DNA of 64,000 bases from Calothrix anomala FACHB-343 (GTDB lineage: Bacteria; Cyanobacteriota; Cyanobacteriia; Cyanobacteriales; Nostocaceae), in contig NZ_JACJQG010000021.1 in NCBI RefSeq assembly GCF_014696435.1, forward strand, positions 1 through 64,000. The letters run 5' to 3'. Below, piece by piece: positions 10,385 through 51,337 of the stretch. The position numbers and the translations under genes are program-made. Under the pieces are notes generated by a model, which saw only the letters and a list, made by a program, of their open reading frames with translations, had not been told where the DNA came from and made no database searches. The first letter of the stretch is position 1; each line of letters begins with the position of its first letter.

Positions 10385-10609
10385 TAAAATCTAAAATTCC
10401 TTGTCCCCTGCTCCTGTGCGAAGAAGAAAGTCCCTTAGCTGGCGTTAGCCTACCAGTGGCGGTGGTAAGCACAGAATTATGATTAACTACGAAAATTCCC
10501 CCCTTACTCCCTGCTCCCTGCTCCCTTGCTCCTCAATTCACCCGCGATCGCCTTTCTGTTGCTAAATTAACAAAGTAGAATAAAAAATCACAGCTAGGTG
10601 CAATCCACA

Positions 10610-21654: not shown

Positions 21655-21745
21655 GGATGATATCGTTTAGTTGTGTGTGAGGAGCAAGTTAAAACGAAAA
21701 ACACCCGGGGTGGAAACACGGCAACACTCCCAGGTGTTTTTTGTT
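21655..21745 (+). ncRNA. Yfr2/Cyano-1-type small RNA
   Basis: A TATAAA box at 21643-21648 could give a transcript from about 21655. It contains GTGTGAGGAG (21675-21684), then a terminal stem: AACACC (21700-21705) pairs with GGTGTT (21733-21738), with GGGG/CTCCC pairing inside and a loop carrying GGAAACA, followed by TTTTTTGTTT. The GGAAACA loop and 3' terminator match what is known of the Yfr2 family of abundant cyanobacterial RNAs. The upstream decamer is the exact complement of ten bases of the conserved unpaired Yfr1 motif ACUCCUCACAC. No open frame overlaps. Strand could in principle be reversed, but the loop motif and T-run favour plus. Confidence 0.68.
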
Positions 21746-30459: not shown

Positions 30460-30516
30460 CAAAACCTCCGAAGTAATGCGACAATGCGACCTAGCAGTTT
30501 TTGCTTGTATGGGGTA

Positions 30517-30590
30517 ATAGAGACGCGATTCATCGCTCTTGTAGAGACGCGATTCATCATAGAGACGCGATCAATCGCGTCTCTACAAGA
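30517..30590. repeat. Tandem GACGCGATTCATCGC palindromes, partly decayed
   Basis: TAGAGACGCGATTCATCG (30518-30535), then two further copies, the last being a full GAGACGCGATCAATCGCGTC palindrome (30562-30581) with TCTAC after it. Three copies in one place, showing local amplification. Confidence 0.7.
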
Positions 30591-30648
30591 GTTCCCTGTT
30601 GTTTTGTCCGCATCTTTCCCATATGTGAATCGAATAACTTATTGAACT

Positions 30649-30860
30649 CAGGACTTACGCAGGTGTTGAGGATTTGTACTTCCTTCATGTTCAATCGTCA
30701 GCACTCTCGGCAAATGAGCTACAGACTCAGGATGTCTGCCAGTTCACAGTCAATGCCAGAGCTAGAGAATTGTTATTCTGGGGTAAGGCAGGATTCGCAT
30801 CACTCTATCCAGCACATATCATGCCGATGCGTAGAACCAATGGTTCTTGCCCTAAGGCAT
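30649..30860. other. Possible decayed insertion element with AGGACTTACGCA end
   Basis: AGGACTTACGCA at 30650-30661 is the same terminal sequence as in the elements at 21808 and 22882. It is followed by about 200 bp of higher complexity and GC content than the surroundings. Short open frames exist on both strands but none gave a recognisable product. Confidence 0.3.
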
Positions 30861-30966
30861 CGCTGCCATTTTTCTTTCTCCCAAAATTATTTAACTATTT
30901 CTCTTTGTATAACTATTAAGCTATTAATATTTCTTTATCTTTGTCTGTGTGTGAAGGCACATATTA

Positions 30967-31031
30967 ATGGGCATGGGGCATTGGGCATGGGGCAACAGTC
31001 AACCGTCAACCGTCAACAGTCAACCGTCAAC
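30967..31031. repeat. Two heptamer arrays (TGGGCAT and CAACAGT/CAACCGT)
   Basis: GGGCATGGGGCATTGGGCAT directly precedes CAACAGTCAACCGTCAACCG and on; two heptamer classes are fused head to tail just upstream of acsF. Confidence 0.8.
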
Positions 31032-31116
31032 CCCTCCATTTGCAGAACTTAACTATTTAGAACAATATTTTATGCTTATATAACTATTGGAAGATTTAAT
31101 CATAAAAGGATTCTCG

Positions 31117-32193
31117 ATGGTGAAGTCTCTTGAAACTCCGGAGCCTCAGATGCTGAAGCCAGGTATTAAAGCGCCTGTGCAGGAAACATTATTAACACCC
31201 CGGTTTTATACTACTGACTTCGCCGCGATGGAGAAGTTAGATATTTCCGCCAATGAGACTGAGTTATTAGCAATTGTTGAGGAACTAAGGGCTGATTATA
31301 ACCGCCATCATTTTGTGCGGGATGATGAATTTAAACAATGTTGGGATGGCATTCAAGGAGAAACAAGACGTTCTTTTATTGACTTTTTAGAGCGTTCTTG
31401 TACTTCCGAATTTTCTGGGTTTTTATTGTTTAAAGAACTGTCGCGCCGCCTGAAAGAAAAGAACCCAATTTTGGCAGAAGCTTTCCAATTAATGGCAAGA
31501 GATGAAGCCCGCCATGCAGGTTTTCTCAATAAATCAATGGCTGATTTTAATCTTTCCTTAGATTTGAGCTATCTGACCAAAAATCGTACTTATACATTTT
31601 TTCCGCCAGAGTGGATTATTTACACAGTCTACCTATCGGAGAAAATTGGGTACTGGCGCTATATTTTAATGTATCGGCATTTGCAGAAAAATCCCCAATA
31701 TCAATTTTATCCCCTCTTCCGAAAATTTGAGAGTTGGTGTCAGGATGAGAATCGACATGGAGATTTCTTTAAAGCGTTACTCAGGTCACAACCAAAATTA
31801 TGGCAGAACTGGAAAGCGCGGTTGTGGGTGCGGTTCTTTTTGCTGACGGTGTTTGTTACCCATACAATTACAGTCTTTGAACGTGCTAGTTTTTACCAAT
31901 CTATCGGTATACATCCGCGCAAGTATAATCAGCAAGTGATTCGGGAGACAAATAATACCGCCGCCCGTGCATTTCCGTTGATTTTAGATACTAATCACCC
32001 GGAATTTTTCTGGCGATTAGAGCAGTGTTTTGAAAATAATCAGAAATTGGCAGAGATTAACAAGAGCGATCGCTCTAAGTTTGTCAAGTTCTGGCTGAAA
32101 GTACCAGCGATCGCGGCTATTATCTGGCACATGTTGCGGATTTATCTGGTTAAACCCATTAATGCGGAGTTAACACGAGAAACAGTTCTTTGA
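31117..32193 (+). CDS. acsF: Mg-protoporphyrin IX monomethyl ester (oxidative) cyclase
   Basis: 358 residues, start ATG 31117 with AAAAGGA upstream (a TTG ten codons earlier is not needed). Di-iron ligands are visible as ExxH pairs: DEARHAGF and DENRHGDFF, with earlier Glu in EFSGFLLFKELSRR. It forms the isocyclic ring E of chlorophyll using oxygen. Cyanobacteria often carry two copies, one for normal and one for low oxygen. The head-to-head position with hemN suggests this is the low-oxygen isoform, but sequence alone does not settle that. The gap between them (657 bp) is full of repeats. Confidence 0.95.
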   Translation: MVKSLETPEPQMLKPGIKAPVQETLLTPRFYTTDFAAMEKLDISANETELLAIVEELRADYNRHHFVRDDEFKQCWDGIQGETRRSFIDFLERSCTSEFSGFLLFKELSRRLKEKNPILAEAFQLMARDEARHAGFLNKSMADFNLSLDLSYLTKNRTYTFFPPEWIIYTVYLSEKIGYWRYILMYRHLQKNPQYQFYPLFRKFESWCQDENRHGDFFKALLRSQPKLWQNWKARLWVRFFLLTVFVTHTITVFERASFYQSIGIHPRKYNQQVIRETNNTAARAFPLILDTNHPEFFWRLEQCFENNQKLAEINKSDRSKFVKFWLKVPAIAAIIWHMLRIYLVKPINAELTRETVL

Positions 32194-32588: not shown

Positions 32589-35500
32589 ATGCCTGTTTCG
32601 CGTAATGTTTTCGTTGGATGGTTCACAATCGCCTTCATTACAGCATTTTGGGGAAACGCCGCAAATGCCCAAATTACCCCAGATGGAAGTTTAGGAACTG
32701 AGGCTTCACAAGTAACTCCTAATGTTGATATTAAAGGGTTACCTGCTGAACGGATTGATGGTGGCGCTACAAGGGGAGCAAATTTATTTCACAGTTTTTC
32801 CGAGTTTAATATTAGAGACTTGCAAAGGGTTTATTTTTCCAATCCCACAGGAATTGAGAATATTTTGATGCGAGTAACGGGGGGTAAAGTCTCTAATATT
32901 CTGGGAACTTTAGGGGTAAATGGTAACGCGAATTTATTTTTGATGAACCCAAATGGAATTGTGTTTGGGAAAAATGCACGGTTGGATCTGGGAGGTTCGT
33001 TTGTTGCGAGTACGGCGAATTCATTTGTGTTTGGTGATGGGTTGGAATTTAGTGCAACTAATCCCCAAGCAGCCCCATTGTTGCAGGTTAATTTGACACC
33101 AGGGCTGCAATATGGCAACAATGCTGGAAGTATTTTAAATCAATCCAGTTTTAATAATATTGGTTTACGGGTACAACCTGGTAAGACTTTAGCACTTGTG
33201 GGTGGTGATGTTTTTTTAGACGGTGGTATTCTGACATCACGAGGAGGCAGAATTGAACTGGGGAGTGTCGCTAGTAATAGTTTAGTGAATGTAAAACCTA
33301 CTGATGATGGGTTTTCTCTTGACTATGAGGGTGTTAAAGAATTTCAAGATATTAATTTTAATTCGTCTTTTGCGAATGTGAGTGGTGAAGGTGGCGGTGA
33401 TGTGCAATTGCAAGGAAGGCGCATTACTTTTTATGACTTTTCCTCAATAGATGCTAGTACTTTAGGTTCAGAGCCAGGCGGAACTTTGGCAATTAATGCT
33501 GTTGACTCAGTTGAACTATATACTACTGCTTTATTTGCAGAAGTACTACTGCCAAATGCTACCGGAAAAGGAGGAAATTTAACGATTAGGACTAATTTTT
33601 TAAAAGTAGCTGATGGTTCAATAGTATCAATTAATACTTATGGCATAGGAGATTCTGGAAAGTTAACCATCAGATCAAAGTCTGTGGAAGTAATTGGCGA
33701 ATCAGCAGATGGCAGAATTCCCAGTGGATTAGTTGCTGAAGTGGAGCGTAATGCTACCGGGAATGGAGGAGTTTTAACTATTGAAACTGAACGTTTGAAA
33801 GTTGCCAATGGAGCAATCTTATCAACTAGTACGTTGGGTAAAGGAAATGCTGGAGAGATGCTCATCAAAGCAACTGATATAGAAGTAATTGGTCGTTCAG
33901 GTAATGGCAGGTTTGCCACTGGATTGTTTGCTCAGGTTAATTCATCAGCTACTGGAAATGGTGGTAATTTAACTATTGAAACTAACAAATTAACTGTAGC
34001 TGAGGGAGCACAAATAGGACCCAGCACTTTTAGCAGTGGGAAGGCAGGAAATTTAAGAATTATTGCGAATCAAGTCGAAGTAATTGGACGCTCAAGGGAT
34101 GGCAAAGCTCCCAGTGGATTGTTTGCTCAAGTTAATGCATCGGCTACTGGAGATGGAGGTGATTTAATTATTGAAACTGACGAATTAATAGTAACCGATG
34201 GAGCACTCTTATCAACTAGCACTTTTGGCGGTGGGAAAGCAGGAAATTTAAAAATTATCGCGAATAAAGTGGAAGTTATCGGCACTTCGCCTGATAACCA
34301 AGTTTCCACTCGTTTAGCTACTCGAGTTAATCCCACAGCTACCAAAGATGGGGGTGATTTAATTATTGAAACTGGCCAATTGACAGTAGCAAATGGAGCA
34401 CAGTTAGAAACTAGTACATTTGGTGATGGCAAAGCAGGAAATTTGAAAATTACTGCGACTGAAGTGGAAGTAATCGGAACCTCGATTGATGGCCGATCTC
34501 CCAGTGCTTTGTTGACTCAAGTCATTCCATTAGCTAATGGAAATGGAGGCAACTTAAATATTGAGACTGACAACTTAACAATAACTGATGGAGCACTCTT
34601 ATCAGCTAGTACAGGAGGTAAAGGGAATGCTGGAGATTTAAAAGTAAGTGCCATTCAAGTCAAATTAATTGGTACTTCGGCAAATGGTCAATTCAGCAGT
34701 GGTTTATTTACTCAAACTGAAAGTTCAGGAAATGCAGGAAAAGTAGAAATTACCACCGATAAGCTATTTGTAGAAGACGGAGCGAGGATTTCTGCCGCAA
34801 CTTCTGGCGGTAAAAGCAATGACATCACCATAAACGCCAACTCCCTAACAGCAACCAATGGTGGACAACTCCGCACTACCACCTCTGGAGAAAACAAAGC
34901 AGGAAACATCACCTTAAAAGTAACCGATGACATCACCCTCACGGGAACCGATACTGGTATATTTGCAAATACAACCCCAGAATCCCAAGGTAACGGTGGT
35001 AATATCTTTATCGACCCCAGAAAAGTCACTATTCAAGATGGTGCAAAAATAGCAGTAGATAGTCAAGGTACGGGTATTGGTGGCGATGTAGAACTGTTTG
35101 CAGGTTTGTTGACTCTCGATAATGGACAAATCTCTGCCCAAACTCGCAGCAATACTGGCGGTAATATTAACCTGAATCTGCAAGACTTACTATTACTACG
35201 CAACGGCAGTCAAATCACCACCACAGCCGGAAATCAACAATTTGGCGGCGATGGCGGTAACATCACCATTAATACCCCTTTTATAGTCGCTGTTCCCAAT
35301 GAAGATAGTGATATCACTGCTAATGCTTTCAGTGGTACAGGCGGCAAAGTTAACATTGCCACAAACGGTATTTTTGGTATTCAGTCACAGCCACGTCTAA
35401 CAGAATTGAGCGATATTACTGCTAGCTCGGAATTAGGTGTTAATGGTGAGGTATCTATCAACACACCGGAAGTAGACCCTTCGCGGGGATTGGAAGAATT

Positions 35501-35867
35501 GCCGGAAAGTGTTGTTGATGTGGCAGGATTAATTAATCAGAACTTGTGTACTGCTGCTCGTCAGGGAAGTGAATTTGTAGTAACAGGCCGTGGTGGGTTA
35601 CCTGTTACTCCCTATGATATCCTCCAAGGGGGCGCTACCTGGGAAGATTGGCACATAGCAGAAGAACAAGGGTTATCTACACCAAAGCCAGGAAGAGGAA
35701 ACAATCAATTACAGAAAAAAAGCCAGGAATCTCAACAAATTGTGGAAGCACAAGGCTGGATAACTCATAATAATGGCGATGTCATTCTGACGGCGAAACC
35801 AGCTAAGGTAACCCCACAAGGTACTTGGTTACATCCTCTAGATTGCCGGATGTTGAGGGAAAGCTAA
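32589..35867 (+). CDS. Two-partner-secretion (filamentous haemagglutinin-type) exoprotein
   Basis: 1092 residues. Signal peptide (hydrophobic 8-22, cleavage near ANA-QI), then the TPS domain (about 28-270) with GTEASQV, ERIDGGATRGANLFHSFSEF, NLFLMNPNGIVFGKNARLDLGGSFVAST. The rest is a right-handed beta-helix, including about five copies of a 65-residue repeat. The last 180 residues include CTAARQGSEFVVTGRGGLPVTPYD, typical of the cyanobacterial branch. Such proteins cross the outer membrane through a TpsB pore; no TpsB is in the window. The stop codon overlaps the ATG of the CHAT gene (TAATG), so the two are co-translated. Confidence 0.93.
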   Translation: MPVSRNVFVGWFTIAFITAFWGNAANAQITPDGSLGTEASQVTPNVDIKGLPAERIDGGATRGANLFHSFSEFNIRDLQRVYFSNPTGIENILMRVTGGKVSNILGTLGVNGNANLFLMNPNGIVFGKNARLDLGGSFVASTANSFVFGDGLEFSATNPQAAPLLQVNLTPGLQYGNNAGSILNQSSFNNIGLRVQPGKTLALVGGDVFLDGGILTSRGGRIELGSVASNSLVNVKPTDDGFSLDYEGVKEFQDINFNSSFANVSGEGGGDVQLQGRRITFYDFSSIDASTLGSEPGGTLAINAVDSVELYTTALFAEVLLPNATGKGGNLTIRTNFLKVADGSIVSINTYGIGDSGKLTIRSKSVEVIGESADGRIPSGLVAEVERNATGNGGVLTIETERLKVANGAILSTSTLGKGNAGEMLIKATDIEVIGRSGNGRFATGLFAQVNSSATGNGGNLTIETNKLTVAEGAQIGPSTFSSGKAGNLRIIANQVEVIGRSRDGKAPSGLFAQVNASATGDGGDLIIETDELIVTDGALLSTSTFGGGKAGNLKIIANKVEVIGTSPDNQVSTRLATRVNPTATKDGGDLIIETGQLTVANGAQLETSTFGDGKAGNLKITATEVEVIGTSIDGRSPSALLTQVIPLANGNGGNLNIETDNLTITDGALLSASTGGKGNAGDLKVSAIQVKLIGTSANGQFSSGLFTQTESSGNAGKVEITTDKLFVEDGARISAATSGGKSNDITINANSLTATNGGQLRTTTSGENKAGNITLKVTDDITLTGTDTGIFANTTPESQGNGGNIFIDPRKVTIQDGAKIAVDSQGTGIGGDVELFAGLLTLDNGQISAQTRSNTGGNINLNLQDLLLLRNGSQITTTAGNQQFGGDGGNITINTPFIVAVPNEDSDITANAFSGTGGKVNIATNGIFGIQSQPRLTELSDITASSELGVNGEVSINTPEVDPSRGLEELPESVVDVAGLINQNLCTAARQGSEFVVTGRGGLPVTPYDILQGGATWEDWHIAEEQGLSTPKPGRGNNQLQKKSQESQQIVEAQGWITHNNGDVILTAKPAKVTPQGTWLHPLDCRMLRES
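33683..34690 (+). repeat. Internal 195-nt coding repeats in the exoprotein gene
   Basis: About five units, each starting near VEVIG and running through LFAQV, TGNGGxLxIET and GxAGNLxI. Units are divergent at the DNA level, so they are old but still in register. They would build one additional beta-helix turn set per unit. Confidence 0.8.
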
Positions 35868-38503
35868 TGAAACGCCTGCTGAGGTTTCTCCTAATTGCCA
35901 CTTTGGGGCTAATTTTCAGTGTCACTATTCCGGTTTTGCTGACTGTTCAAGCACAACAGTCACCCCTAGAATTGCTGCAAACAGGAAAAAAGTATTATGA
36001 TGCTGGACAGTTTTCAGCCGCAACACAATTATTACAGCAAGCAGCACAAATTTATCAAACTCAAGGAGATTTACCTCAGCAAGCTCAGGCATTAAGTTTT
36101 GTGTCTCTATCTCAGCAAAAATTAAGTAATTTACCTGAAGCAGAAGCTGCAATTAATACTAGCTTGTCAATACTGGAAAAACTACCAGATAAAAATAGTT
36201 GGCATCAGGTTCGCGCTCAAGTGTTGAATGCGCAAGGAAATCTGCAATTAGCTAAGGGCAATGCTACAGCTGCTGTGGAAATATGGAAAAATGCCGCCAG
36301 TCTTTATGCTGAGATTGGTAATACAGTAGGTATAATTGGTAGCCAAAGCAATCAAGCTGAAGCATTGCAGGTATTGGGACTTTACCGCCAAGGGTATAAG
36401 CTGATTAATGATATAGAAGAAAAGTTGCAAGCACAACCGGACTCTGAACTTAAGGCTACAGGTTTACATAATCTCGGTAATATACTTAGGCAAAGAGGTG
36501 ATTTAGAACGCTCTCAAAAGCTTCTAGAGCAAAGTTTAGCGATCGCAGAAAAATTAAAAACTACCGAATCTGTTCAAGATAAAATATTGCTGAGTTTGGG
36601 AAATACTAAACTAGCTCTCGCTAGAAGAGCAAAAGCTATTAAAGATCCGCAAGCTGCTGCACAGTCGATTCAAGAAGCTGTAAATTATTATCAACAGGCA
36701 GCAAAGGTGACAACTTCACCAATTACAAAAATTCAAGCACAACTCAATCAGCTAAGTTTATTGATAGAGACGGAACAGACAGCAGCTATTGAGCCTTTAT
36801 TATTAGCGATCGCCAAACCAATTGTCCAGTTACCCGCCAGTCGCGCTGCTGTATATGCACAGGTGAATTTCGCTGCAAGTTTGCTCAAATTGGAAAATGG
36901 GAAAAAAGAGATAGCTAACTCGGTAAATATTGCACAGATATTAGATACTGCGGTGACACAAGCTAGGAGTTTAGCCGATAGACGAGCCGAATCTTATGCT
37001 TTGGGTACTCTTGGTAAGTTACACGAAAAACAACAATCTAGGCTATTAGCTAAAAAATATACACAATTAGCCCTAGTTATTGCCCAAGGGATAAATGCGC
37101 CGGATATCGCTTATCAATGGCAATGGCAGATGGGAAGGATTTTACAGGCTGAAGCAGAAAATCAGCAACAAGCAGTTAGTGAGGCAATTACTTATTACAC
37201 CGAAGCATTTAATAACCTTAATAGATTACGTAGTGATTTAGTTGCCCTTTCTCCAGAAGTTCAGTTTTCTTTTCGTGAGAGTGTAGAACCAGTATATAGG
37301 CAATTAGTAGATTTATTATTACGTTATCCCCAAGTTAGCAAAGATAACTTAATCCAAGCACGTAATGTAATTGAAGCATTGCAATTAGCCGAATTAGATA
37401 ACTTTTTTCGTGATGCTTGTGTTCAACCCGTAGCGGTAAATATTGATAATTTAGATTCTCAGGCTGCGGTGGTTTATCCTATTACATTAGAAAATCGTTT
37501 GGAGGTAATATTAAAATTGCCTGGGGTAGATAATCTGCGTCACTATACAAATCAAAATCTCTCTACAATACAAGTAGATGAAGCAGTTAAAAACCTGCGG
37601 ATTTTATTAACAAAAAGAAGCACAACCCCCAGACAAATACAAACAGCATCAAAGCAATTTTATGATTGGTTAATTAAACCGTTTGAAAAAGAATTAGATA
37701 CTACCAAAGATGGTAATCAAAACTCAATTAAAACCTTGGTATTTGTTCTAGATGGATCTTTACAGAATATTCCCGTATCAGTTCTTCATGATGGGGAAAA
37801 ATATCTCATAGAAAAATACGCTGTTGCTGTGACTCCAGGCTTGCAACTTTTAGCCCCCAAACCTCTATCAAGAAAAAATCTCAAAGCGTTAATTGCTGGA
37901 GCAACTAATGCGCCTAGTTTTGAGAAAGAAGGGTTAAGTCCATTAGAAAACGTCAAATTGGAATTATTGGAAGTGGGTGAGCAAGTAAACCACGCTCAAA
38001 AATTAGAAAACCAAGAATTTATCCAAAAAAATATCCGTAACCAGATTAATTCTAGTTCTGTTAATGTTGTTCATATTGCCACCCACGGTAAGTTTAGTTC
38101 CAACCCCGAACAGACTTATATTCTAGATTGGAATCAACGTATTCAAGTAAAAGATTGGGATAATTTACTACAAGTAAATGACTTTAAAAAGCTGACTCCT
38201 GTGGAATTATTAGTTTTGAGTGCTTGTCAAACAGCCACAGGAGATAAACGCGCTGCTTTGGGTTTAGCAGGGGTTGCTATTCGTGCAGGTGCAAGCAGTA
38301 CTTTGGCTACCCTTTGGCAAATTAATGATGCTTCCACAGCCCAATTTATGATTAAGTTTTACCAATATTTGAATAATCCTAAATTAACTAAAGCAGAAGC
38401 CCTGAGAAATACTCAACTTGCCTTTTTGAAAGGCTACGACAATACAGATTACAATCGTCCTTATCATTGGGCACCTTTCATTTTAATAGGCAATTGGTTG
38501 TAA
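35867..38503 (+). CDS. CHAT domain protein with N-terminal TPR repeats (caspase-like)
   Basis: 878 residues from the ATG at 35867, which overlaps the preceding stop. Signal peptide or membrane anchor at 5-25 (LLRFLLIATLGLIFSVTIPVLL). TPR-like helical repeats occupy about 30-460. The C-terminal CHAT domain (about 590-878) has the His-Cys dyad: H740 in HIATHG and C787 in LSACQTATG, followed by GVAIRAGASSTLATLWQINDASTAQFM. CHAT is a caspase/separase-like peptidase fold. The start used here excludes 14 upstream residues encoded from a TTG. Coupled to a secreted exoprotein, it is a candidate processing protease or surface effector; direct evidence is lacking. Confidence 0.95.
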   Translation: MKRLLRFLLIATLGLIFSVTIPVLLTVQAQQSPLELLQTGKKYYDAGQFSAATQLLQQAAQIYQTQGDLPQQAQALSFVSLSQQKLSNLPEAEAAINTSLSILEKLPDKNSWHQVRAQVLNAQGNLQLAKGNATAAVEIWKNAASLYAEIGNTVGIIGSQSNQAEALQVLGLYRQGYKLINDIEEKLQAQPDSELKATGLHNLGNILRQRGDLERSQKLLEQSLAIAEKLKTTESVQDKILLSLGNTKLALARRAKAIKDPQAAAQSIQEAVNYYQQAAKVTTSPITKIQAQLNQLSLLIETEQTAAIEPLLLAIAKPIVQLPASRAAVYAQVNFAASLLKLENGKKEIANSVNIAQILDTAVTQARSLADRRAESYALGTLGKLHEKQQSRLLAKKYTQLALVIAQGINAPDIAYQWQWQMGRILQAEAENQQQAVSEAITYYTEAFNNLNRLRSDLVALSPEVQFSFRESVEPVYRQLVDLLLRYPQVSKDNLIQARNVIEALQLAELDNFFRDACVQPVAVNIDNLDSQAAVVYPITLENRLEVILKLPGVDNLRHYTNQNLSTIQVDEAVKNLRILLTKRSTTPRQIQTASKQFYDWLIKPFEKELDTTKDGNQNSIKTLVFVLDGSLQNIPVSVLHDGEKYLIEKYAVAVTPGLQLLAPKPLSRKNLKALIAGATNAPSFEKEGLSPLENVKLELLEVGEQVNHAQKLENQEFIQKNIRNQINSSSVNVVHIATHGKFSSNPEQTYILDWNQRIQVKDWDNLLQVNDFKKLTPVELLVLSACQTATGDKRAALGLAGVAIRAGASSTLATLWQINDASTAQFMIKFYQYLNNPKLTKAEALRNTQLAFLKGYDNTDYNRPYHWAPFILIGNWL

Positions 38504-38523
38504 GTACAGATTATCTATCGTCA

Positions 38524-38743
38524 GGGTACAACAATTTTCATACATGTCAACTTGAGCTTCAAAGCTTTTGAAACTCTCGTTTCCAGGCTCTGCCTGGAAA
38601 TGCGTATTGGGAGGCTCCGCCTCCTGTTGAGATAAATTGAGGCGGAGCCTCACGATCATCGCTCCCACGCAGAGCATGGGAGCGAGGTAGGATAAGAGTT
38701 TCACGTTAAGTTGATGCCAATGAACGGCCGTTGTGCCCCTACC
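38524..38743. repeat. MITE-like element with TGTCAACTT/AAGTTGA ends
   Basis: CATACATGTCAACTTGAG (38540-38557) is inversely repeated by CACGTTAAGTTGATGCCAATG near 38703-38722. Extended, the outer arms AGGGTACAAC and GTTGTGCCCCT also pair. Interior hairpins: TTCCAGGC/GCCTGGAA, GGAGGC/GCCTCC, GCTCCCAC/GGGAGC. A sister element lies at 55463-55703. Confidence 0.6.
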
Positions 38744-38788
38744 AGTGTATTTCATTTACATGAAAAATGCTTTAATACCGTTTGTAAA

Positions 38789-39607
38789 TTAATTTCCACT
38801 TAAAAAAATATCTCCAGCAATTGGTTCTTGAGCAATTTTTTCTAATCCAACTTGCTGCTGACTTAATAAATCAACCCAGATTTGTTTAATACTAATATTT
38901 TCTGGTTCGTTGAATCTCAAATTTGCTATTTCTGTTAAAGTATTTAACCAAATGCTATGCTTGGCATAGATTTTAATACGTTCGATTGGTGTGTTGGCAG
39001 AGTTTAAATCTCTGGTGAGTGCAGAAGATGGTTCCACCCTTTTAACGATTCCTGTTAAAGAAGCAGGATTTGATGATTGCTGAGATTCTCCAGCACTAGA
39101 ACAATTAATATCTACATACCAGCGATATTGTTTATTAACTTCCAAAGGTGAGGTATGAGATGGCAAATTTATCCTGAAAATACCCGATTTTTGAGCTAAT
39201 TGAAACCGAGTCCGATAAACTTCATTCTCTCCATCTTGCAGAGAAAATTCTGCCTCCGGTGCTTCTTTGTTGGTGTAGGGTATGTACACCCATAATTTAG
39301 GTTTTTCATCCACAGTTAACTGTAAATTATAAGTACCTACTAAAGCTGTGAGTGGTGGTTTATTGGACTGATAAAGACAATCACCCCTACTTCCTGTTCC
39401 CTCACTGGCTGGGGGAGTTCCCCTGTCTGGAGGAGGAGGTGGGATGAAGACAACTTGTTTTTGCTGTTGCTGAGAATTTTTAATATGTGAATTGTTAGAT
39501 TCCGCTAAGACAGGCTTGGGATAGACAAACAAGCTATAAATGCCCAAACTGACTAATAATAAAGGTTTCAGTCTGAAGCACTGTAGTTTTCTCCCGTATA
39601 ACTGCAT
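38789..39607 (-). CDS. DUF928 family exported protein
   Basis: 272 residues. Signal peptide (hydrophobic 14-28, cleavage near VLA-ES), then the family signature PPPPPDRGTPPASEGTGSRGDC, TALVGTYNLQLTVDEKPKLWVYIPY, and GIFRINLPSHTSPLEVNKQYRWYVDINC. Two cysteines probably form a disulfide. DUF928 genes in filamentous cyanobacteria are often beside CHAT, CHASE2 and haemagglutinin genes, as here, but no biochemical function is established. GAGGAGAG precedes the ATG. It is convergent with the CHAT gene. Confidence 0.88.
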   Translation of the reverse strand: MQLYGRKLQCFRLKPLLLVSLGIYSLFVYPKPVLAESNNSHIKNSQQQQKQVVFIPPPPPDRGTPPASEGTGSRGDCLYQSNKPPLTALVGTYNLQLTVDEKPKLWVYIPYTNKEAPEAEFSLQDGENEVYRTRFQLAQKSGIFRINLPSHTSPLEVNKQYRWYVDINCSSAGESQQSSNPASLTGIVKRVEPSSALTRDLNSANTPIERIKIYAKHSIWLNTLTEIANLRFNEPENISIKQIWVDLLSQQQVGLEKIAQEPIAGDIFLSGN

Positions 39608-39722
39608 TTCTTGCTCTCCTCAAAACCATTATCTCGCACCTGTACATTAGATAATAGTCTGATTTTATGATGCAAGTAATTACAAATTGCGGATGAATAA
39701 TTTGTGAAGATTTGCTTTTTTC

Positions 39723-39755
39723 AGATCCCCGACTTCTCAAAGAAGTCGGGGATCT
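39723..39755. repeat. Perfect 15-bp stem hairpin (GATCCCCGACTTCT)
   Basis: AGATCCCCGACTTCT (39723-39737), loop CAA, AGAAGTCGGGGATCT (39741-39755). It is downstream of the RTX-type gene and upstream of DUF928. No T-run follows on either strand, so it is a palindromic repeat that may still block transcription. Confidence 0.7.
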
Positions 39756-39788
39756 AATACCGCAATTTGGTAAATCATCTAGCTGAGT

Positions 39789-40631
39789 TTAGACTTCTAT
39801 AGTACTGCTTTCTATAGAGGCGATATTACTATGTCCTAGTACCTTGGCAATTAGTTCACCACCGAAGCCATCCCACAAGGGTCTGGCGTAAATATCTACA
39901 GTCGTAACTCCATTGAAACTACCGAGCCTGAAATCATAATATCCTGGTGGATTATCTTGGATCTGAATAATATCCTCTCCTAGTTTAAAGTCGTTGATCA
40001 GTGCATATTCATCTAGCAAAGCACCGCCATCGTAGTAAAGTTTATTTTGATCTCCAAGCACAAATACGTCTCTTCCACTACCACCAATCATGACATCAAA
40101 GCCAGAATCACCAACCAGGCGATCGTTACCATCACCGCCATTTAAGGTATCCTTACCGGTACCACCATACAGCGTGTCATTTCCTCCCAAACCCCGTAAT
40201 AAATCATTGCCATCTCGTCCGGATAGACTATTGTTATTACTATTACCGTCAATGGCATTATCGAGATTATTACCGGAGCCGTTGATGAGAGCGCTGCCAG
40301 TTAGCTGTAAGTTTTCTACGTTATTGCTTAGAGTGTAGGTGACTGAGGTTCTTACAGTATCAATTCCAGACCACAGTCCTTCAATGACTTGATCGCTAGT
40401 ATTGTCAACAATGTAAATATCATCACCTAAGCCACCTTCCATTGTGTCTTTACCAGTACCACCATACAGCGTGTCATTACCCAAATCACCAAATAATATG
40501 TCATCACCTTCTAACCCATAGATAACATCATTATCCCAAGTTCCGTTCAGTTGTAACTTAAAATTAAATGGCGCTCCAGGCCCGTTAAAAGTGTTGTTGT
40601 CGTTGTATATTGTTCCTGTAATTGTAGCCAT
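39789..40631 (-). CDS. RTX-type calcium-binding protein
   Basis: 280 residues. Two blocks of nonapeptide GGxGxDxLx repeats: IYGLEGDDILFGDLGNDTLYG (38-58) and GRDGNDLLRGLGGNDTLYGG (about 138-157), separated by a VENLQLTGSALINGSGN segment typical of this family. Such repeats form calcium-filled beta-rolls after export by a type I system. No N-terminal signal peptide is present, consistent with type I secretion. AGGGAGAA precedes the ATG. The promoter region contains five phased repeats (40758-40806). Its place inside the CHAT/CHASE2 region suggests a further exported component. Confidence 0.9.
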   Translation of the reverse strand: MATITGTIYNDNNTFNGPGAPFNFKLQLNGTWDNDVIYGLEGDDILFGDLGNDTLYGGTGKDTMEGGLGDDIYIVDNTSDQVIEGLWSGIDTVRTSVTYTLSNNVENLQLTGSALINGSGNNLDNAIDGNSNNNSLSGRDGNDLLRGLGGNDTLYGGTGKDTLNGGDGNDRLVGDSGFDVMIGGSGRDVFVLGDQNKLYYDGGALLDEYALINDFKLGEDIIQIQDNPPGYYDFRLGSFNGVTTVDIYARPLWDGFGGELIAKVLGHSNIASIESSTIEV

Positions 40632-40757
40632 TTTAATTTCTCCCTTTAGTTCTGATAATTAACTGATATTGTTGATTAAATTGTTTAATCAACCTGATGA
40701 CTAAAGTATGCTCAATATTTTCTTTTAATAGTTGAGGAGAATTGGGGACTATAAAAA

Positions 40758-40806
40758 TTGAGGTGAATTGAGATAATTGAGGTTAATTCAGATTAATTCA
40801 GGTTGA
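40758..40806. promoter_or_regulatory. Five phased 10-bp direct repeats upstream of the RTX gene
   Basis: Units start at 40758, 40768, 40777, 40787 and 40797: TTGAGGTGAA, TTGAGATAA, TTGAGGTTAA, TTCAGATTAA, TTCAGGTTGA. The roughly helical-turn spacing is what a response regulator binding cooperatively would use. It is 127-175 nt upstream of the RTX start. Cyanobacterial Pho boxes have similar TTAACCT units but 11-bp spacing, so the regulator is open. Confidence 0.5.
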
Positions 40807-40918
40807 GAGATTGGATTGTAACAACCATGTAGCGTTCATTGCTATACCAATCCGAAATTACGTTCAGAAACAAGAACGCCAACTTTTCCCAAAAGTCGGG
40901 TATTTAGGGAAACGTTTA

Positions 40919-43255
40919 TTAATTATTTTTTGAACTATAAGTCTTATAAACTACCAAGCTACCAATACTACCCACTAATACCAAACCCGCAGGAATTAAA
41001 GGTAACCAAGCCGCCTGTACTACTAATAACACCCAACAAATACTGTATAAAATAGCCAAAGCTATACCACCAGGCAGTATAATTAGTAGTGGTATTCGTT
41101 TGATATATGCGGAAGAGAATTGCAGATACCAAGCTAGGAAACCTCCTATCAAAGACCAAGCAAAAATCCAAATCACTTCTCCATATTCAGGTAAAGTCCA
41201 AATCAAAGGTCGATGATCTAGTACTGTACTGAGGATTTGACTAACCATATGTGCTTGAATCTCTACCCCAGACATAGTTTGCACCGACCAACGGCTACTA
41301 TAAGGGGTAAGCCAGGAATCATCGTTAAAACTAGGAGCAGTTGTACCAATTAGTACAATGCGATTTTTGACTAAATCAGGATTAAACTGATTTTTCAGTA
41401 ATTCTTGCAGTGAAATTTTCACCGCAATATCACTAGATGCACGGTAGTTTAATAGTACTTGGTGACCGCTAGGATTAATATTATGGTAGCCACCAGTGTT
41501 TTTTTCTAAAGTTTTAAATACTGCTTTGCCTAATTTGAGATAATTATCTGGGGTAAATTCAATCTGAATTCCCCGTTCTGCTAAGTAACGAGTTGCTAAA
41601 ACCCAGCTAAAGGCGTAGTTACTTTGACAAGGAGAAGCATTACCCACAGCTAATAAATTTCGGCGAATAACTCTATCTCGATCCAACAAGACATTGTTAA
41701 ATCCCTGACGATGGGGAGGAATTTCTGGCGGGGGGAACACTCCGGGAACCTTGGGAATTTGGTATTTACAGATAGCAAAAAAGCGATCGCTATTTCCCAT
41801 GCTTTTGGCTAACTCCCCATAATCTCCTCCCACTGGGATTTCTCGGTAGATATCTAAACCAATGGCTTGCGCTCCATATTGCTCTAATTTGCTGACAATT
41901 TGTGCTAGGGAACGGTCGGATAAAGAAGCAGATCCTCTTTCTTTTAAGGGTTGAGATTGTACATCTTCTTCTGTGATAGTTACCAATAATAGTCTTTTGT
42001 CTGGTTCTTCCTGTGGTCTTTGTCGCAGCAAATGGTCAAAAGCTCCCATTTCCCATGCTTCCAGGAAACCAAGGGAGCGAACACCGATCGCCAAACAAGC
42101 GATCGCCAAACTCGCCAAAATTGCAGTCCATGGAGGGATGGAAGTCCTAGTTTCCTCGAAAGCTAGCAGTTGTTGCTCAACCCAATTACGATTAAACACA
42201 GATGCGTAAATCGGGTTTTTGACCACTAAATTCCCCTGTTGTTGGGTTACCAAACCAGATAAGCGCAATTCTAAATGTTCGTAACAATTTTTGGCTGGGA
42301 TTTTTCCCTGACGCAGAATTTTTTTATAGAGTAGCAGTAACTTTTCACTAGCACAATTATTTCTTAAAATCCGGTCTCGGATTGTTCGCAGATGTTCTGG
42401 TTCATCTTGGGATTCCCAATTTTCAATCAGGCGTTGCTGTACTAATCTTTTAACTGATTGGGGTGTTTGCAATTCTGATTCCTGGCTAATTAACCAACAC
42501 AGTTTTTGGGTCAAAAATGGCTGTCCCCCAGTCCAATACAATATTTCTTTTAACACTGCTTGAGGATTACTAATCCTTCCAGCTAAACCTGCTGCTAATA
42601 CAGCACATTCATGTAATTGAAAACCTTTGAGTTCAATTGCTCTACCAATATTAAAAGGTGTAGCATATTCATCTTGAATTAACTCTGAGGGGGTAGCAAC
42701 TCCCAACAGTGCAAAGGTAAGTCTATTGTATTCAGGTTTGCTGGCTCGTTTTTCGTAGCAATTACGAATTAAACCAAAAAATTCATCAGTTGCAAAACTT
42801 AAGCTGAGAACACTATCGATTTCATCAATAAAGATGACAATATTTTCCTTAATTTGTACCAGTAAGATTTTTTCGATAAATTCTCCCAACTTTTGCACGG
42901 GAGATAAATCATCCTGTTCCCGTAACCAACTACGTCGATTTACTCGCAATTCAAAACCGCTAATTAATTCCTGAATAATACCGCCATACCATTGTGATGC
43001 TGTAATTTCTTGACTACCAATTCCACTGAGTTCAATTTCACCACAGACGATATTTTCTGCTTGTAGCTTATACATAGTCTGAATTCGCAAGCTAGATTTT
43101 CCCATTTGGCGAGAATTCAGAACATAGCAATATTCCCCAGCTAATAAAGCCTGATAAAGTTCACTGTCTGCTTGGCGAAGAACATAGGTAGAAGCATCTG
43201 GGGGTAAGCTTCCTCCAACTTGATATTGATAAGGGGAATTGAGTTCTGGACTCAT
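40919..43255 (-). CDS. AAA-like ATPase fused to a CHASE2 sensor domain
   Basis: 778 residues. The N-terminal AAA-like (AAA_35) module has Walker A in [10 protein letters not shown] (G52-K53-S54) and Walker [10 protein letters not shown] (D144, E145), then [12 protein letters not shown] first transmembrane segment (about 374-396) leads to a CHASE2 domain (about 400-690; [59 protein letters not shown]). Three C-terminal membrane helices follow. CHASE2 senses extracytoplasmic signals, so ATPase and sensor are joined across the membrane. Its ATG directly follows the stop of the vMAP-AAA gene (TAG-ATG), so the two are translationally coupled. Confidence 0.93.
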
Positions 43256-44647
43256 CTAAATATGACTCAAATGTTGAGAAAAATACTGACTATACAACTG
43301 ACAACGAGGTTCTACCTTGTTTCCTAAAAGTCTCACCAATCCTATACTCTGCAATTGATAAGCTAACACAGGTTCTATTTGTATTGGAATCGGAGAAACA
43401 ATAACTTTTTTAAAAGCCGCAGCCAATTCTGGATGCTGTTGTAGGTTTAACCACTGTTCCCGTAAATGATGACTGTAAATACCTGCATCTGTAGCTGCTT
43501 GCTCTAAAATTTGTGTAATGGTAACTTGGGGATATATTTTCATGTAGATAAAAGCCTGTTCTAATAGGTAAGGATGACCTCCAACAAGTTGCATAAGTGA
43601 TTCAATTGTTTTAGCATCTATGTTTAAAGAATGTTGATGAACTAGTGATATTACCTGCTCATGGGTAAATTCTGGTAATTCAATTGGTAACCCAACATTA
43701 AATGGAGATTGATTAATATTTAGTCTAATGTAGACATTCGTGGAATGAGCAATTACCAAACGTAATTTTTTCCAGACTTTACGACTTCTTGCTTTTTCGT
43801 ACCAAGAACGCAAAAGCCCAAAAAAATCTTCATATATTTCCGGATACGGAAATAGTATATCTACATCATCTAGACATAAGACAAGAGGCGTATCTGCTTG
43901 TGCTAATAAGTATTCTTCAAAGAAGGTTGTGCAACTAACTTTTGCTCCCATACCTTCTTCGTCCCAATATTCATCTAACTCACTTGCTAATCCTAATTCC
44001 CGACTAATGTTAATACAAAACCAGCGCAAAAATTTATTCAGATTATTAAAATGAGTACTACTGTCAGCTAATTCAAAGCTTAAACTAACAGTACGATATT
44101 TGTCCTGTGCTGCCTCAGATAGGATTTTATCAATCAGATATGTTTTACCCATGAGACTGGGAGCTTTAATCCTAATCAGAGAGCCTGGTTGCTTGACTGT
44201 TTCATAACAAATAGATTCAATATTATGACGTTCTACATAAATATTAGGAATAAAATTTTGTTGATTTTCCGAAGAGTTAGAATTTTGAAATTTCTCTTCA
44301 TTTTTTATTAAATTAAAATTAATTGATGAGATATTGCTAGGGAACTCTTGCTCAATATTTTCTTGATAAATATATTCCTGCCAATGTCTTTTTAATGCTT
44401 CTTTGAAATTACTTTTTCTGACTTTTTCTCCCAAAGCTTCCGTCAGAGTTTTCCAAAGTTTGGGAGCTACATCTTGACTTATATAACTGGTAGCATATTG
44501 ATACTTGGCTGCTATGGCATCATACTCTTCTCTATTCCATGCTCCTTTAAGGATAATAATCTCAACATCTGTTAAGTTTCTTTGAAATGTTTTATATGTT
44601 AATTTATTGGCAATTTGAATCGCTTCATCTAAGTTAAAATTTCTCAT
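43256..44647 (-). CDS. vMAP-type HTH plus AAA-like ATPase
   Basis: 463 residues. Residues 1-90 (NLDEAIQIANKLTYKTFQRNLTDVEIIILKGAW..YDAIAAKYQYATSYI) match the vWA-MoxR-associated N-terminal helix-turn-helix (vMAP) domain. A variable linker precedes the AAA-like domain: Walker A APSLMGKTYL (162-171), Walker B LVLCLDDVD (255-263), and GGHPYLLEQAF. vMAP-AAA proteins are partners in predicted NTP-dependent conflict or signalling systems in multicellular bacteria. Its stop abuts the start of the CHASE2 gene. Cytoplasmic, no membrane segment. Confidence 0.9.
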   Translation of the reverse strand: MRNFNLDEAIQIANKLTYKTFQRNLTDVEIIILKGAWNREEYDAIAAKYQYATSYISQDVAPKLWKTLTEALGEKVRKSNFKEALKRHWQEYIYQENIEQEFPSNISSINFNLIKNEEKFQNSNSSENQQNFIPNIYVERHNIESICYETVKQPGSLIRIKAPSLMGKTYLIDKILSEAAQDKYRTVSLSFELADSSTHFNNLNKFLRWFCINISRELGLASELDEYWDEEGMGAKVSCTTFFEEYLLAQADTPLVLCLDDVDILFPYPEIYEDFFGLLRSWYEKARSRKVWKKLRLVIAHSTNVYIRLNINQSPFNVGLPIELPEFTHEQVISLVHQHSLNIDAKTIESLMQLVGGHPYLLEQAFIYMKIYPQVTITQILEQAATDAGIYSHHLREQWLNLQQHPELAAAFKKVIVSPIPIQIEPVLAYQLQSIGLVRLLGNKVEPRCQLYSQYFSQHLSHI

Positions 44648-44892: not shown

Positions 44893-47325
44893 TTAGGCAA
44901 CAGTCTGAACTAGTGCGGCAAAGCTTTGACTTCCTTGCATATACTCCTCTAAACTAAAGGAATCTACTTGAATCGCATCATTACGGGCGAATTCAGCCTC
45001 GCAGATAAGTTCAACATCTTTCTCGCTAATTACCCCAGCTTTTAAGGCTGTGGAAATTAACTCATCGGGTTTTAGCTGTGGTAGTTTCCCTGCATGGCTA
45101 GCATTTTTGATAGTTTTAACGATTGGTTCAGCTTGGGATAACAACGTAAAAGCTTTTTCCAAACGTCCTAATGCTTCATCGCTGCTGCGGGGAATATGAA
45201 TACCTGCGGTAAGGCGATCGCGTATTTCTCCAAGAGTTTGTAATTTATGTGCAACTTCAGCACCAAGTTTGTCATCGGGTAATGAACCAATGGGATTAAG
45301 TCGCCACCACCAAGTCAAGAAATTACCTAACACGGGGACAAATAAATTCTGGAATATCCCCTCAAACGCTAATTGCATCTGCGCAAAAGCATATTGCATC
45401 GCCCAGTGAACAAAAGCTAAGTCTTCCGCTTTTCGTCCTTCGGCTTCAAAACGGCGGAGGGTAGCAGTTGCTAAATACATCCAGGTGAGAATATCCGCAA
45501 ACCTTCCTGTGAGTTTCTCCCGTCGCTTCAAGGTTCCACCGAGGGAGAACATGGCAATATCAGTTAGTAAGGCAAAGGTAGCCGCAGCCCATTGTAATTT
45601 ACGGTAATATTTAGCCGTCTCACCTGTAACTGGTGAAGCTGCTAAATTCCCACGGGTAAGATAGAGAAGTTTGGCGCGGAAACCATTACGCACCGTCAAG
45701 CCTAGATGATGCCAAAAAGCTTGATCAAAAGCATTCACATCTGATTGATTTAGTGCTGTAATTTCCGCATAAACATAAGGATGACAGCGAATCGCCCCTT
45801 GTCCAAAAATCATCAAGGTACGGGTGAGAATATTTGCGCCTTCGACGGTAATAGAAATTGGAGTGGCTGTATAAATATTGGCCAATAAATTTCTGGGGCC
45901 TCGACAAATTCCCGCACCGCCCAGAATATCCATACCGTCGTTGATGATTTTGCGGGAGATTTCGGTCAAACTATATTTGGCGATCGCAGAAACTACCGCA
46001 GGTTGTTCGCCTTTATCTACTGCACCACAGGTATAAGTTCGCGCCGCCTCCATTAAGTATGTTAAACCGCCAATTCTCGCTAAAGGTTCTTCCACACCTT
46101 CAAACCGACCAATCGATAAACCAAATTGTTGCCGTACCACAGCATGAGCGCTGGTAACTCTCGCTACTAACTTTGCTACACCCGTACAACTAGCCGGGAA
46201 GCTAATTCCCCTACCTGCGGCTAGGCTTTGCATCAACATTTTCCAGCCATTACCAGCCTGTTCCACACCACCGATAATTTGCTCAACAGGAATAATAACG
46301 TTATGTCCTTCTGTAGGCGAATTGTAAAAAGGTACACCCATTGGGTCATGTCGTCTACCCATAATTACTCCCGGTGTATCCGTCGGGATTAAAACACAGG
46401 TAATGCCAACTTCTTTACCTTTGCCTAAGTAATTTTCCGGGTCGCGTAATTTAAAAGCTAGTCCTAAAAGAGTTGCGATCGCAGCTAAGGTAATATAGCG
46501 CTTCTTCCAATTCAACCGCAGATAAAGCTTACCATCATCACCTCTAAACACCGTTCCTTCTGACTTAATACTAGCCGCATCTGACCCAGCCGTCGGTTCT
46601 GTCAGCGCAAAACAAGGAATTTCCTCACCCCTAGCGAGACGGGGTAGGTAATAATTTTTCTGTTCTTCTGTTCCGTAGCGGAGTAATAATTTTGCTGGGC
46701 CTAGTGAGTTAGTTACGCCCACAGTTGCAACGTGAGTAAAAGAACGGGATGCTAACTTAGTCATCACATTACTGTAGGCGAAATTAGAAAATCCCAAACC
46801 GCCATACTCTTGGGGAATCATCATTCCTAAAAAGCGTTCTTGTTTGAGATAGTCCCAAACTTCCGGCGGTAAATCCTTGCGGCGATAAATTTCCCAATCA
46901 CTTACCATGCGACAAACCTGTTCAACAGGGCCATCAAGAAAGGCTTGCAATTCTGGTGTAATTATAGGGTATGGTTCTTGATTAATTCTTTGAAAATTTG
47001 GTTTACCTGAGAAGAATTCCCCATCTACCCAAACATTACCCGCTTCAATAGCTGCGCGTTCAGTATCAGAGATTTTGGGTAATAAATTAAAGGCTTTAAT
47101 GGCTTTGATTAACGGTGATGTGATGATATTTTGGCGGATAATTGGGATATTGAAAATAAGAGCGATCGCACCAAAAATTACCCAAGTCCAAATAGGGGCG
47201 TGGACGAATACTAGTAATGTTGCGAAATATAGCGACCAAACCCATAAAGGAACGCCAATGTAACCAAGCAATAGTAATAGGAAAACTAGCGTTGAAACTA
47301 TTATGATTGGATGAATAAGGTTCAT
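44893..47325 (-). CDS. fadE: Acyl-CoA dehydrogenase, FadE type
   Basis: About 810 residues, the size of Escherichia coli FadE rather than short-chain acyl-CoA dehydrogenases of about 380. Hydrophobic N-terminus (about 5-60), then the acyl-CoA dehydrogenase body: QEYGGLGFSNFAYSNVMTKLASRS, CFALTEPTAGSDAASIKSEGTV (FAD/substrate region), RGISFPASCTG, GMDILGGAGICRGPRNLLANIY. It catalyses the first oxidation of acyl-CoA to trans-2-enoyl-CoA. The ATG at 47325 has GGTGA seven bases upstream; the ATG five codons earlier has none. It is last in a same-strand order with acyl-CoA ligase, fadN-like and fadA genes. Confidence 0.93.
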   Translation of the reverse strand: MNLIHPIIIVSTLVFLLLLLGYIGVPLWVWSLYFATLLVFVHAPIWTWVIFGAIALIFNIPIIRQNIITSPLIKAIKAFNLLPKISDTERAAIEAGNVWVDGEFFSGKPNFQRINQEPYPIITPELQAFLDGPVEQVCRMVSDWEIYRRKDLPPEVWDYLKQERFLGMMIPQEYGGLGFSNFAYSNVMTKLASRSFTHVATVGVTNSLGPAKLLLRYGTEEQKNYYLPRLARGEEIPCFALTEPTAGSDAASIKSEGTVFRGDDGKLYLRLNWKKRYITLAAIATLLGLAFKLRDPENYLGKGKEVGITCVLIPTDTPGVIMGRRHDPMGVPFYNSPTEGHNVIIPVEQIIGGVEQAGNGWKMLMQSLAAGRGISFPASCTGVAKLVARVTSAHAVVRQQFGLSIGRFEGVEEPLARIGGLTYLMEAARTYTCGAVDKGEQPAVVSAIAKYSLTEISRKIINDGMDILGGAGICRGPRNLLANIYTATPISITVEGANILTRTLMIFGQGAIRCHPYVYAEITALNQSDVNAFDQAFWHHLGLTVRNGFRAKLLYLTRGNLAASPVTGETAKYYRKLQWAAATFALLTDIAMFSLGGTLKRREKLTGRFADILTWMYLATATLRRFEAEGRKAEDLAFVHWAMQYAFAQMQLAFEGIFQNLFVPVLGNFLTWWWRLNPIGSLPDDKLGAEVAHKLQTLGEIRDRLTAGIHIPRSSDEALGRLEKAFTLLSQAEPIVKTIKNASHAGKLPQLKPDELISTALKAGVISEKDVELICEAEFARNDAIQVDSFSLEEYMQGSQSFAALVQTVA

Positions 47326-47452
47326 TATGTTTTCACCCATGTGAATAAAGGTATTAAAATCTCACGCAGAGACGCAGAGGCGCAGAGAAAGAAAAAGAGA
47401 GTTTGAAAATTCTTTCCTTCTGCCTTCTGCCCTCTGCCTCCTGCCTTCTTCC

Positions 47453-48634: not shown

Positions 48635-48794
48635 AAATAACTCCCACCTATTGATAAATAAGGTAAAAGAGATAATTCTCTTTCTCCTCTTCCTTCGTGT
48701 TCTTTGCGCCTTTGCGGTTCGTTATGAATTTTTTTAAACGAACCACGAAGACACGAAGATCGCAAAGAGAAGAGGGTTTGAAAGGGTTTTTGCG

Positions 48795-51164: not shown

Positions 51165-51337
51165 ACATCACCCTTCCTATTTGAATTTTAGATTTTAGAT
51201 TTTGGATTTTGGATTGAATTAACTACCTAACTCTCAAAAAATCATAGTACTCAGCCAAAAACTCTCTATAACTCTCTTAACTTCGCGCCCTTTGCGTACT
51301 TCGCGGTTCGTTTCTTAATACCCTTCCCCACTAAGCA

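Follow-up and report, generated by a model that had tools for sequence, protein, structure and literature searches.

Six neighbouring genes of the cyanobacterium Calothrix anomala FACHB-343 raise the question of whether secreted proteins and signalling ATPases encoded side by side form one system and, if so, what it does. The genes lie in positions 1 to 64,000 of contig NZ_JACJQG010000021.1 (our contig C59); this whole stretch of 64,000 nucleotides is called the window. They encode a TpsA-like exoprotein of the two-partner secretion (TPS) type, a protein with TPR and caspase-like CHAT domains (TPR-CHAT), a DUF928 protein, an RTX repeat protein, a membrane protein with AAA_35 ATPase and CHASE2 sensor domains, and a second, partner AAA_35 ATPase. 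A preliminary description, made from the sequence alone, proposed that an outside signal read by the CHASE2 protein controls an exported protease acting on the exoprotein. All six open reading frames (ORFs) were found where that description had placed them, between 32589 and 44647, with strong Pfam matches (Table 1). The grouping of these genes is more than chance, and the set is a recurrent module of which the window holds one copy; we lean slightly towards the working proposed below for it as a cyanobacterial envelope module. What the preliminary description overlooked is that the CHASE2 sensor and the exported genes next to it stay constant and that the ATPase half is a cassette that can be exchanged.

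The genome of this strain (9.24 Mb in 144 contigs) contains 93 CHAT, 30 TPS, 21 CHASE2, 19 DUF928, 22 AAA_35, and 13 TpsB (ShlB) matches. A DUF928 gene was found within 5 kb of 14 of the 21 CHASE2 genes, as against a mean of 0.41 and a maximum of 3 in 1000 random placements, under a model that ignores contig ends and gene-family expansion. By the same model, CHASE2 genes were linked within 15 kb to CHAT (17/21, random 5.5) and to TPS (10/21, random 2.0), and TPS genes to CHAT within 10 kb (19/30, random 5.4) and to TpsB (12/30, random 0.8). The preliminary description had named a lack of neighbourhood conservation beyond the two overlapping gene pairs as a refutation of its reading, and this outcome did not occur.

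A scan of a genome collection (84,980 species) with a CHASE2 alignment gave 541 confirmed loci, and the following counts concern the best 80 of these. By our own profiles, the domain in front of CHASE2 was caspase-like in 52 loci, AAA_35 in 18, and neither in 10, and an AAA_35 partner gene was visible in 17 of the 18 AAA-type loci. Where at least 8 kb was available on both sides, DUF928, TPR-CHAT, and TPS genes were present in 13, 12, and 11 of 15 AAA-type loci and in 34, 18, and 22 of 36 caspase-type loci, respectively. The exoprotein, TPR-CHAT, DUF928, and CHASE2 genes therefore recur together above chance, as the preliminary description expected. Its inclusion of the RTX gene in the core did not hold up, since RTX matches occurred in 9 of the 18 AAA-type loci and in 8 of the 52 with a caspase-like front.

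The two receptor types were also separated by their closest neighbours. This count used 114 CHASE2 genes from the strain's own genome, its relatives, and the scan, many of them from near-relatives within Nostoc; 130 ORFs had a CHASE2 match, CHASE2 stretches of less than 300 residues and short loci L041-L070 were set aside, and gene calls in the fetched loci were the longest ORFs. Within 6 kb, AAA-type receptors had an AAA_35 partner in 23/29 cases and DUF1822 in 0/29. Caspase-type receptors had DUF1822 in 50/64, a sigma match in 24/64, any AAA_35 partner in 4/64, and a partner with the helix-turn-helix (HTH)-like domain in 0/64. The Fisher p of 7e-16 for AAA_35 partner against DUF1822 is descriptive only, because related loci were taken as independent and two double-gene caspase-type loci were counted on both sides. 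DUF928 was found at the same distance from receptors of both types (57/64 caspase-type and 17/29 AAA-type).

Both fronts were seen in the layout of the window, in which TPS and CHAT genes point at DUF928 and CHASE2 genes: caspase fronts in genomes G084, G042, G125, and G074 (L082, L083, L086, and L087) and AAA_35 fronts at L121, L136, L138, and L139. AAA_35 forms in other gene orders were found in G120, G101, and G091 (L071, L081, and L078); in the G091 stretch, TPS was seen but DUF928 and CHAT were not. The CHASE2 regions of eight such loci were 51-61% identical to that of the window. Two further loci fetched as candidate AAA-CHASE2 loci (L079 and L080) encode AAA_35 proteins without CHASE2. 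In one locus of Nostoc sp. B(2019) (L120), the two cassette types are neighbours that flank two DUF928 genes in opposite orientation, and AAA_35 and CHASE2 are encoded there by separate ORFs. The module was also met at L148 and L163, whose contigs bear the names of Tatlockia and Candidatus Gracilibacteria metagenome-assembled genomes and are probably misbinned cyanobacterial DNA.

One of the two forms, in which a caspase is combined with CHASE2, DUF1822, and an extracytoplasmic function (ECF) sigma factor, is already known from the literature (Burroughs and Aravind, eLife 2021, PMC8195603). In those EACC2-caspase-CHASE2 systems, as in the module, CHASE2 is at the C-terminus of the signalling protein, and our caspase-type copies fit the description, having been equated with it by architecture and neighbours and not by an EACC2 profile. 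The window itself was ruled out as an EACC2-caspase-CHASE2 system. An AAA_35 domain stands where the EACC2-caspase should be, a second AAA_35 ATPase replaces the DUF1822 and sigma proteins, and the neighbourhood up to 6 kb from its CHASE2 gene gave no DUF1822 or sigma match. By term counts, the main text of PMC8195603 does not mention DUF928 or the exoprotein. A metacaspase-CHASE2 fusion has been described (PMC2853523; review PMC7475262). In one Nostoc genome, CHASE2 and DUF928 have been reported to cluster with a hypothetical gene and two WD40 genes, in a passage that speaks of no cassette exchange, TPS, or CHAT, and the same source cites a Synechocystis DUF928 protein as acid-stress responsive (Sci Rep 2017, PMC5587647). 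The AAA_35 form, the exchange of fronts, and the exported set were not found in the literature searched, and neither was a paper that joins CHAT with CHASE2 in cyanobacteria or CHAT with two-partner secretion; few subscription papers were covered, so this absence is weak evidence.

To count exchanges of the front, trees were used. In a CHASE2 tree of 114 rows, obtained by a quick search with a simple model, accounting for the AAA label takes 7 changes (4 or more by starred branches). Since this tree has many long branches, we relied on smaller mixture-model trees of 25 and 38 rows, which were chosen after the first tree, with most of the distant rows and some near-copies left out. In the 38-row tree, which adds the C85-type clade, a single clade of all 17 AAA rows was rejected (p-AU 4e-65, at least 2 changes), with the reservation that the approximately unbiased (AU) test presumes a group named beforehand and these subsets were picked afterwards. 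The rejection indicates that the fronts were exchanged at least twice. Most AAA forms in both AAA groups have an AAA_35 partner. The AAA_35 domains fused to CHASE2 likewise fell in separate places when placed in a tree with further AAA_35 domains, where 5 changes were counted and 3 or more were forced; the X rows of that tree were chiefly hits ordered by their similarity to the window.

The sequences of CHASE2, DUF928, and TPR-CHAT have diverged in step. Among AAA and caspase types, with near-identical CHASE2 rows removed, CHASE2 distances were correlated with those of DUF928 (Mantel r 0.78, n=55, 0/999 permutations) and of TPR-CHAT (r 0.55, n=36, 0/999). The correlations persisted in AAA-versus-caspase pairs alone (r 0.73 and 0.49, respectively). 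Shared species history could be behind part of this co-divergence. Within the strain's own genome, 12 paralogous CHASE2-DUF928 pairs gave r 0.60 (2/4999); these are 12 of the 14 linked pairs, those on C84 and C125 having been missed by the profiles.

On balance, we slightly favour a signalling module in which a membrane CHASE2 receptor and exported DUF928, often with a TPS exoprotein and a TPR-CHAT protease, are constant and the cassettes are exchangeable. CHASE2 would read an outside signal and change the state of the cytoplasmic domain in front of it. That domain is caspase-like in most sampled copies, where DUF1822 and, in many cases, a sigma-type protein accompany it; in the window, the AAA_35 front would work with a second AAA_35 ATPase that bears an HTH-like N-terminus. 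Either cassette would turn on or tune the genes of the exported proteins, among which the CHAT protease would mature or trim the exoprotein outside the cytoplasm. The replacement of the usual caspase-like half by an ATPase in the window suggests that two unrelated switches can do one job. Further, we suggest as possible rather than probable that the caspase/DUF1822/sigma set and the AAA_35 pair are interchangeable on one receptor and have been swapped within one gene neighbourhood at least twice, with DUF928 and an exported caspase-like protease that matures a TPS adhesin extracellularly retained.

The motifs of the window's receptor and its partner are intact. The receptor has an N-terminal ATPase domain (P-loop, DEID motif) followed by CHASE2, which is flanked, by hydropathy, by transmembrane-like segments on its N-terminal (379-397) and C-terminal sides (693-711, 731-749, and 751-769), as in a CHASE2 receptor. 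The P-loop is intact in both window ATPases. GKS and D-E-x-D motifs were present in 29/29 AAA-CHASE2 rows; 15/15 AAA_35 partners had GKT and the first Walker B Asp, with a variable next residue (D 6, N 4, G 3, E 2). The two ATPase genes are joined stop-to-start, as had been stated, with the receptor ATG (43255) abutting the partner's stop (43256) with zero gap. For the caspase cassette, a relay to transcription is suggested by the accompanying sigma-type protein, for which Burroughs and Aravind proposed a transcriptional role (PMC8195603). For the AAA_35 cassette, the HTH-like N-terminus of the partner might be a DNA-binding fold, although profile comparisons gave no confirmation of this, and its best PDB profile match was an entry named lysozyme (5i8l, 1.1e-5).

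The predicted locations are consistent with this division of labour. By a simple home-made rule, not SignalP, signal-peptide-like starts were found in 61/66 TPR-CHAT, 89/93 DUF928, and 56/71 TPS proteins, which agrees with the export of CHAT in the preliminary description. The rule gave 0/29 for AAA-CHASE2, 1/65 for caspase-CHASE2, 0/26 for sigma, 4/56 for DUF1822, and 3/50 for AAA_35 partners. CHASE2 proteins of neither type scored 19/23 because their first membrane segment sits at the protein start. The distribution of these starts implies that caspase-type copies with TPR-CHAT have a caspase-like domain both outside and inside, while the window copy is predicted to have only the outside one. 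The inner caspase kept its His in 66/68 and its Cys in 67/68 proteins.

Several results weigh against the proposed module and its pathway. CHASE2 proteins of neither type were less linked (DUF928 beside 9, TPR-CHAT 6, and TPS 3 of 21), and half of the fully flanked caspase-type loci among the best 80 of 541 lacked TPR-CHAT. AAA_35 genes of the own genome were generally unlinked (TPS 2, DUF928 3, and CHASE2 3 of 22, with 2.0, 1.35, and 1.5 expected). Among 25 window-type rows, the AAA rows sit among caspase rows and a single AAA clade was not rejected (p-AU 0.348); the trees contain about two clear exchanges only, and being unrooted they do not fix the direction. CHASE2 and TPS distances were weakly correlated (Mantel r 0.22, n=35, 5/999; r 0.04 in AAA-versus-caspase pairs). 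Since the exoprotein follows CHASE2 so weakly, TPS genes may be exchanged freely. As for the transcriptional output, a Sigma70_r4 match was found in 1/15 AAA_35 partners (3.3e-4, below the curated cut-off), the HTH-like domain aligned to the module's sigma proteins with an hhalign probability of 0.3%, and no shared promoter word was found for the module genes. Finally, no CHAT-specific motif was found in the exoproteins.

Alternatively, the window could hold two independent neighbours, an AAA_35-CHASE2 pair beside an unrelated TPS-CHAT-DUF928 envelope set. TPS-CHAT is encoded on one strand and the sensor genes on the other, no linkage to TPS or DUF928 was seen for AAA_35 genes elsewhere in the genome, and some AAA-type loci, such as L128, have none of DUF928, TPS, and TPR-CHAT in the fetched stretch. 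We consider this very unlikely, since CHASE2 is the half that is linked to DUF928 in both receptor types, and the two diverged in step even inside one genome.

The link between protease and exoprotein was considered separately. The exoprotein has the TPS secretion domain expected of a TpsA protein, and its stop shares one base with the CHAT start, as the preliminary description had noted (TAATG, 35865-35869). That description also called the His-Cys dyad intact, which is borne out by H740 in IATHGKF and C787 in LSACQTA and by the dyad in 67/69 aligned TPR-CHAT proteins. From its domain and dyad, the window protein is a predicted CHAT peptidase. In the own genome, TPS and CHAT are in one open frame on contigs C9, C19, and C120 (Table 1), in fusions of 1.8-2.1 thousand amino acids that keep His and Cys in 3/3 cases. 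A C-terminal GRGG-P pattern was absent from 3/3 fusions and from 31/64 complete unfused exoproteins. Bordetella FHA with SphB1 is a case of two-partner secretion with a separate maturation protease. The present set resembles it in pairing a TPS exoprotein with an exported protease, here adjacent and elsewhere fused, and differs in that the protease is a caspase-like CHAT and not of the subtilisin type, that no TpsB gene lies on the window's contig, and that cleavage is putative. The preliminary description had proposed looking for a TpsB gene elsewhere in the genome; all 13 ShlB matches were off contig C59, so export of the exoprotein would be in trans.

Instead of maturing the exoprotein, the exported CHAT protein might have foreign proteins or other proteins of the envelope as its targets, or might serve as a TPR scaffold. 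This would suit the lack of a CHAT-linked exoprotein motif and the finding that a TPS gene is directly upstream, on the same strand, in only 25/59 testable TPR-CHAT genes, but it accounts less well for fusions that keep the dyad and for the dyad's conservation in TPR-CHAT proteins generally. We consider this alternative somewhat unlikely and prefer exoprotein maturation as the putative role.

A different reading of the whole locus is a conflict or programmed-death system, in which CHASE2 would sense damage or attack, the cassette would trigger death or shut-down, and the exported genes would be armour or bystanders. The EACC2-caspase-CHASE2/DUF1822/ECF sigma system was placed among immunity and apoptosis systems in the main text of PMC8195603, and membrane-bound CHASE2 orthocaspases are pictured in cyanobacterial cell death in a review (PMC7475262). 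In the own genome, one AAA_35 partner carries CHAT, and partners adjoin AAA_35-WD40 and AAA_35-GUN4 proteins. These pairs are laid out like that of the window: first comes a partner with a strong AAA_35 match, then a protein whose AAA_35 match is weaker and whose C-terminal domain varies; in the window, the variable domain is the membrane CHASE2 sensor. On C104 (L026, 3744-5399 and 5399-8905), the partner has an N-terminal CHAT and the second protein WD40 repeats, and C75 has the GUN4 version. The linkage to exported DUF928, TPS, and TPR-CHAT speaks against a death system, and PADLOC models run on the six window proteins gave nothing but one TPR match. Other CHASE2 proteins beside DUF928 in this genome end in histidine kinase-receiver or GGDEF-EAL domains, which are ordinary regulators. 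By Pfam, five more CHASE2 proteins of the own genome have a caspase-like CHAT front (L014 and L003), a C-terminal histidine kinase and receiver (L007 and L002), or a C-terminal GGDEF-EAL (L001); DUF1822 was found near the caspase fronts of L014 and L003 and sigma-region-4 proteins at L014 and L006. We therefore regard a conflict or death system as unlikely, and the envelope module remains the preferred reading.

The preliminary description had also linked the locus to vMAP systems, a label that probably came from HTH_VMAP-M9, a domain name for the partner's N-terminus. A VMAP ternary system is defined by a MoxR-like AAA ATPase and a vWA protein in the same cluster (PMC10907252). The window has 39 ORFs of 150 amino acids or more. 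In the 20 of these that were scanned, which are all those between 26639 and 58950 except 30501-31052, no match to either protein was listed (Pfam; NCBIfam only for four ORFs). Since both proteins are required, we do not count the window among VMAP ternary systems. The two are alike in being ATPase-based predicted signalling systems of multicellular bacteria (Kaur et al., eLife 2020, PMC7159879); neither CHASE2 nor CHAT occurs in the main text of that paper.

If the two cassettes are interchangeable, an ATPase-based switch would be functionally equivalent to a protease cascade. Many CHAT, TPS, CHASE2, and DUF928 genes about which little is known belong to one repeated unit, and exchange of the switch with the sensor and much of the output kept offers a direct way to test the nature of the output. 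It also links the predicted 'apoptosis-like' caspases of multicellular bacteria to cell envelope control and suggests that adhesins may be processed by an exported caspase.

Table 1. Genes of the window's six-gene group and TPS-CHAT fusions elsewhere in the genome (fusion positions are within the fetched locus, with the contig in parentheses).
Feature	Position	Strand	Evidence
TpsA-like exoprotein, 1092 aa	32589..35867	+	PF05860 E 8.5e-63, residues 27-274; TIGR01901 3.3e-26
TPR-CHAT (caspase-like) protein, 878 aa from ATG 35867	35867..38503	+	PF12770 3.2e-56 plus TPR
DUF928 protein, 272 aa, signal-peptide-like start	38789..39607	-	PF06051 3.7e-55
RTX repeat protein	39789..40631	-	PF00353 9e-34
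AAA_35-CHASE2 membrane receptor (predicted), 778 aa	40919..43255	-	PF05226 5.5e-64; PF14516 1.1e-27
Partner AAA_35 ATPase, 463 aa, conserved N-terminal HTH-like domain of ~90 residues	43256..44647	-	AAA_35 1.4e-140
TPS-CHAT fusion	L014 2643-8102 (C19)		single-protein fusion
TPS-CHAT fusion	L013 3950-10357 (C120)		single-protein fusion
TPS-CHAT fusion	L015 3681-9269 (C9)		single-protein fusion

The DUF928 protein is predicted to fold as a beta-sandwich followed by C-terminal helices. Inspection by eye showed short inverted repeats of the GGAGGCTCCGCCTCC type, rich in G+C, at 38575-38690 in the spacer that separates the CHAT gene from the DUF928 gene. The genes that flank the six look like housekeeping genes, with an AcsF cyclase gene at one end and FadE/FadA/FadB-like genes at the other. 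The latter form, with an AMP-binding enzyme, a row on the minus strand (44893-53488) that looks like a beta-oxidation cluster, which is unusual in cyanobacteria. On the other side (29077-32193), a HemN-like radical SAM gene (-) lies near the AcsF cyclase gene (+), a pairing typical of low-oxygen tetrapyrrole clusters. At gathering score, Rfam gave a single hit in the window, a Cyano-1 RNA (RF01701, 52.9 bits) at 21671-21745 on the plus strand, and a plus-strand gene at 10598-12772 encodes a protein with S-layer homology and a GHL10 glycosyl-hydrolase-like part.

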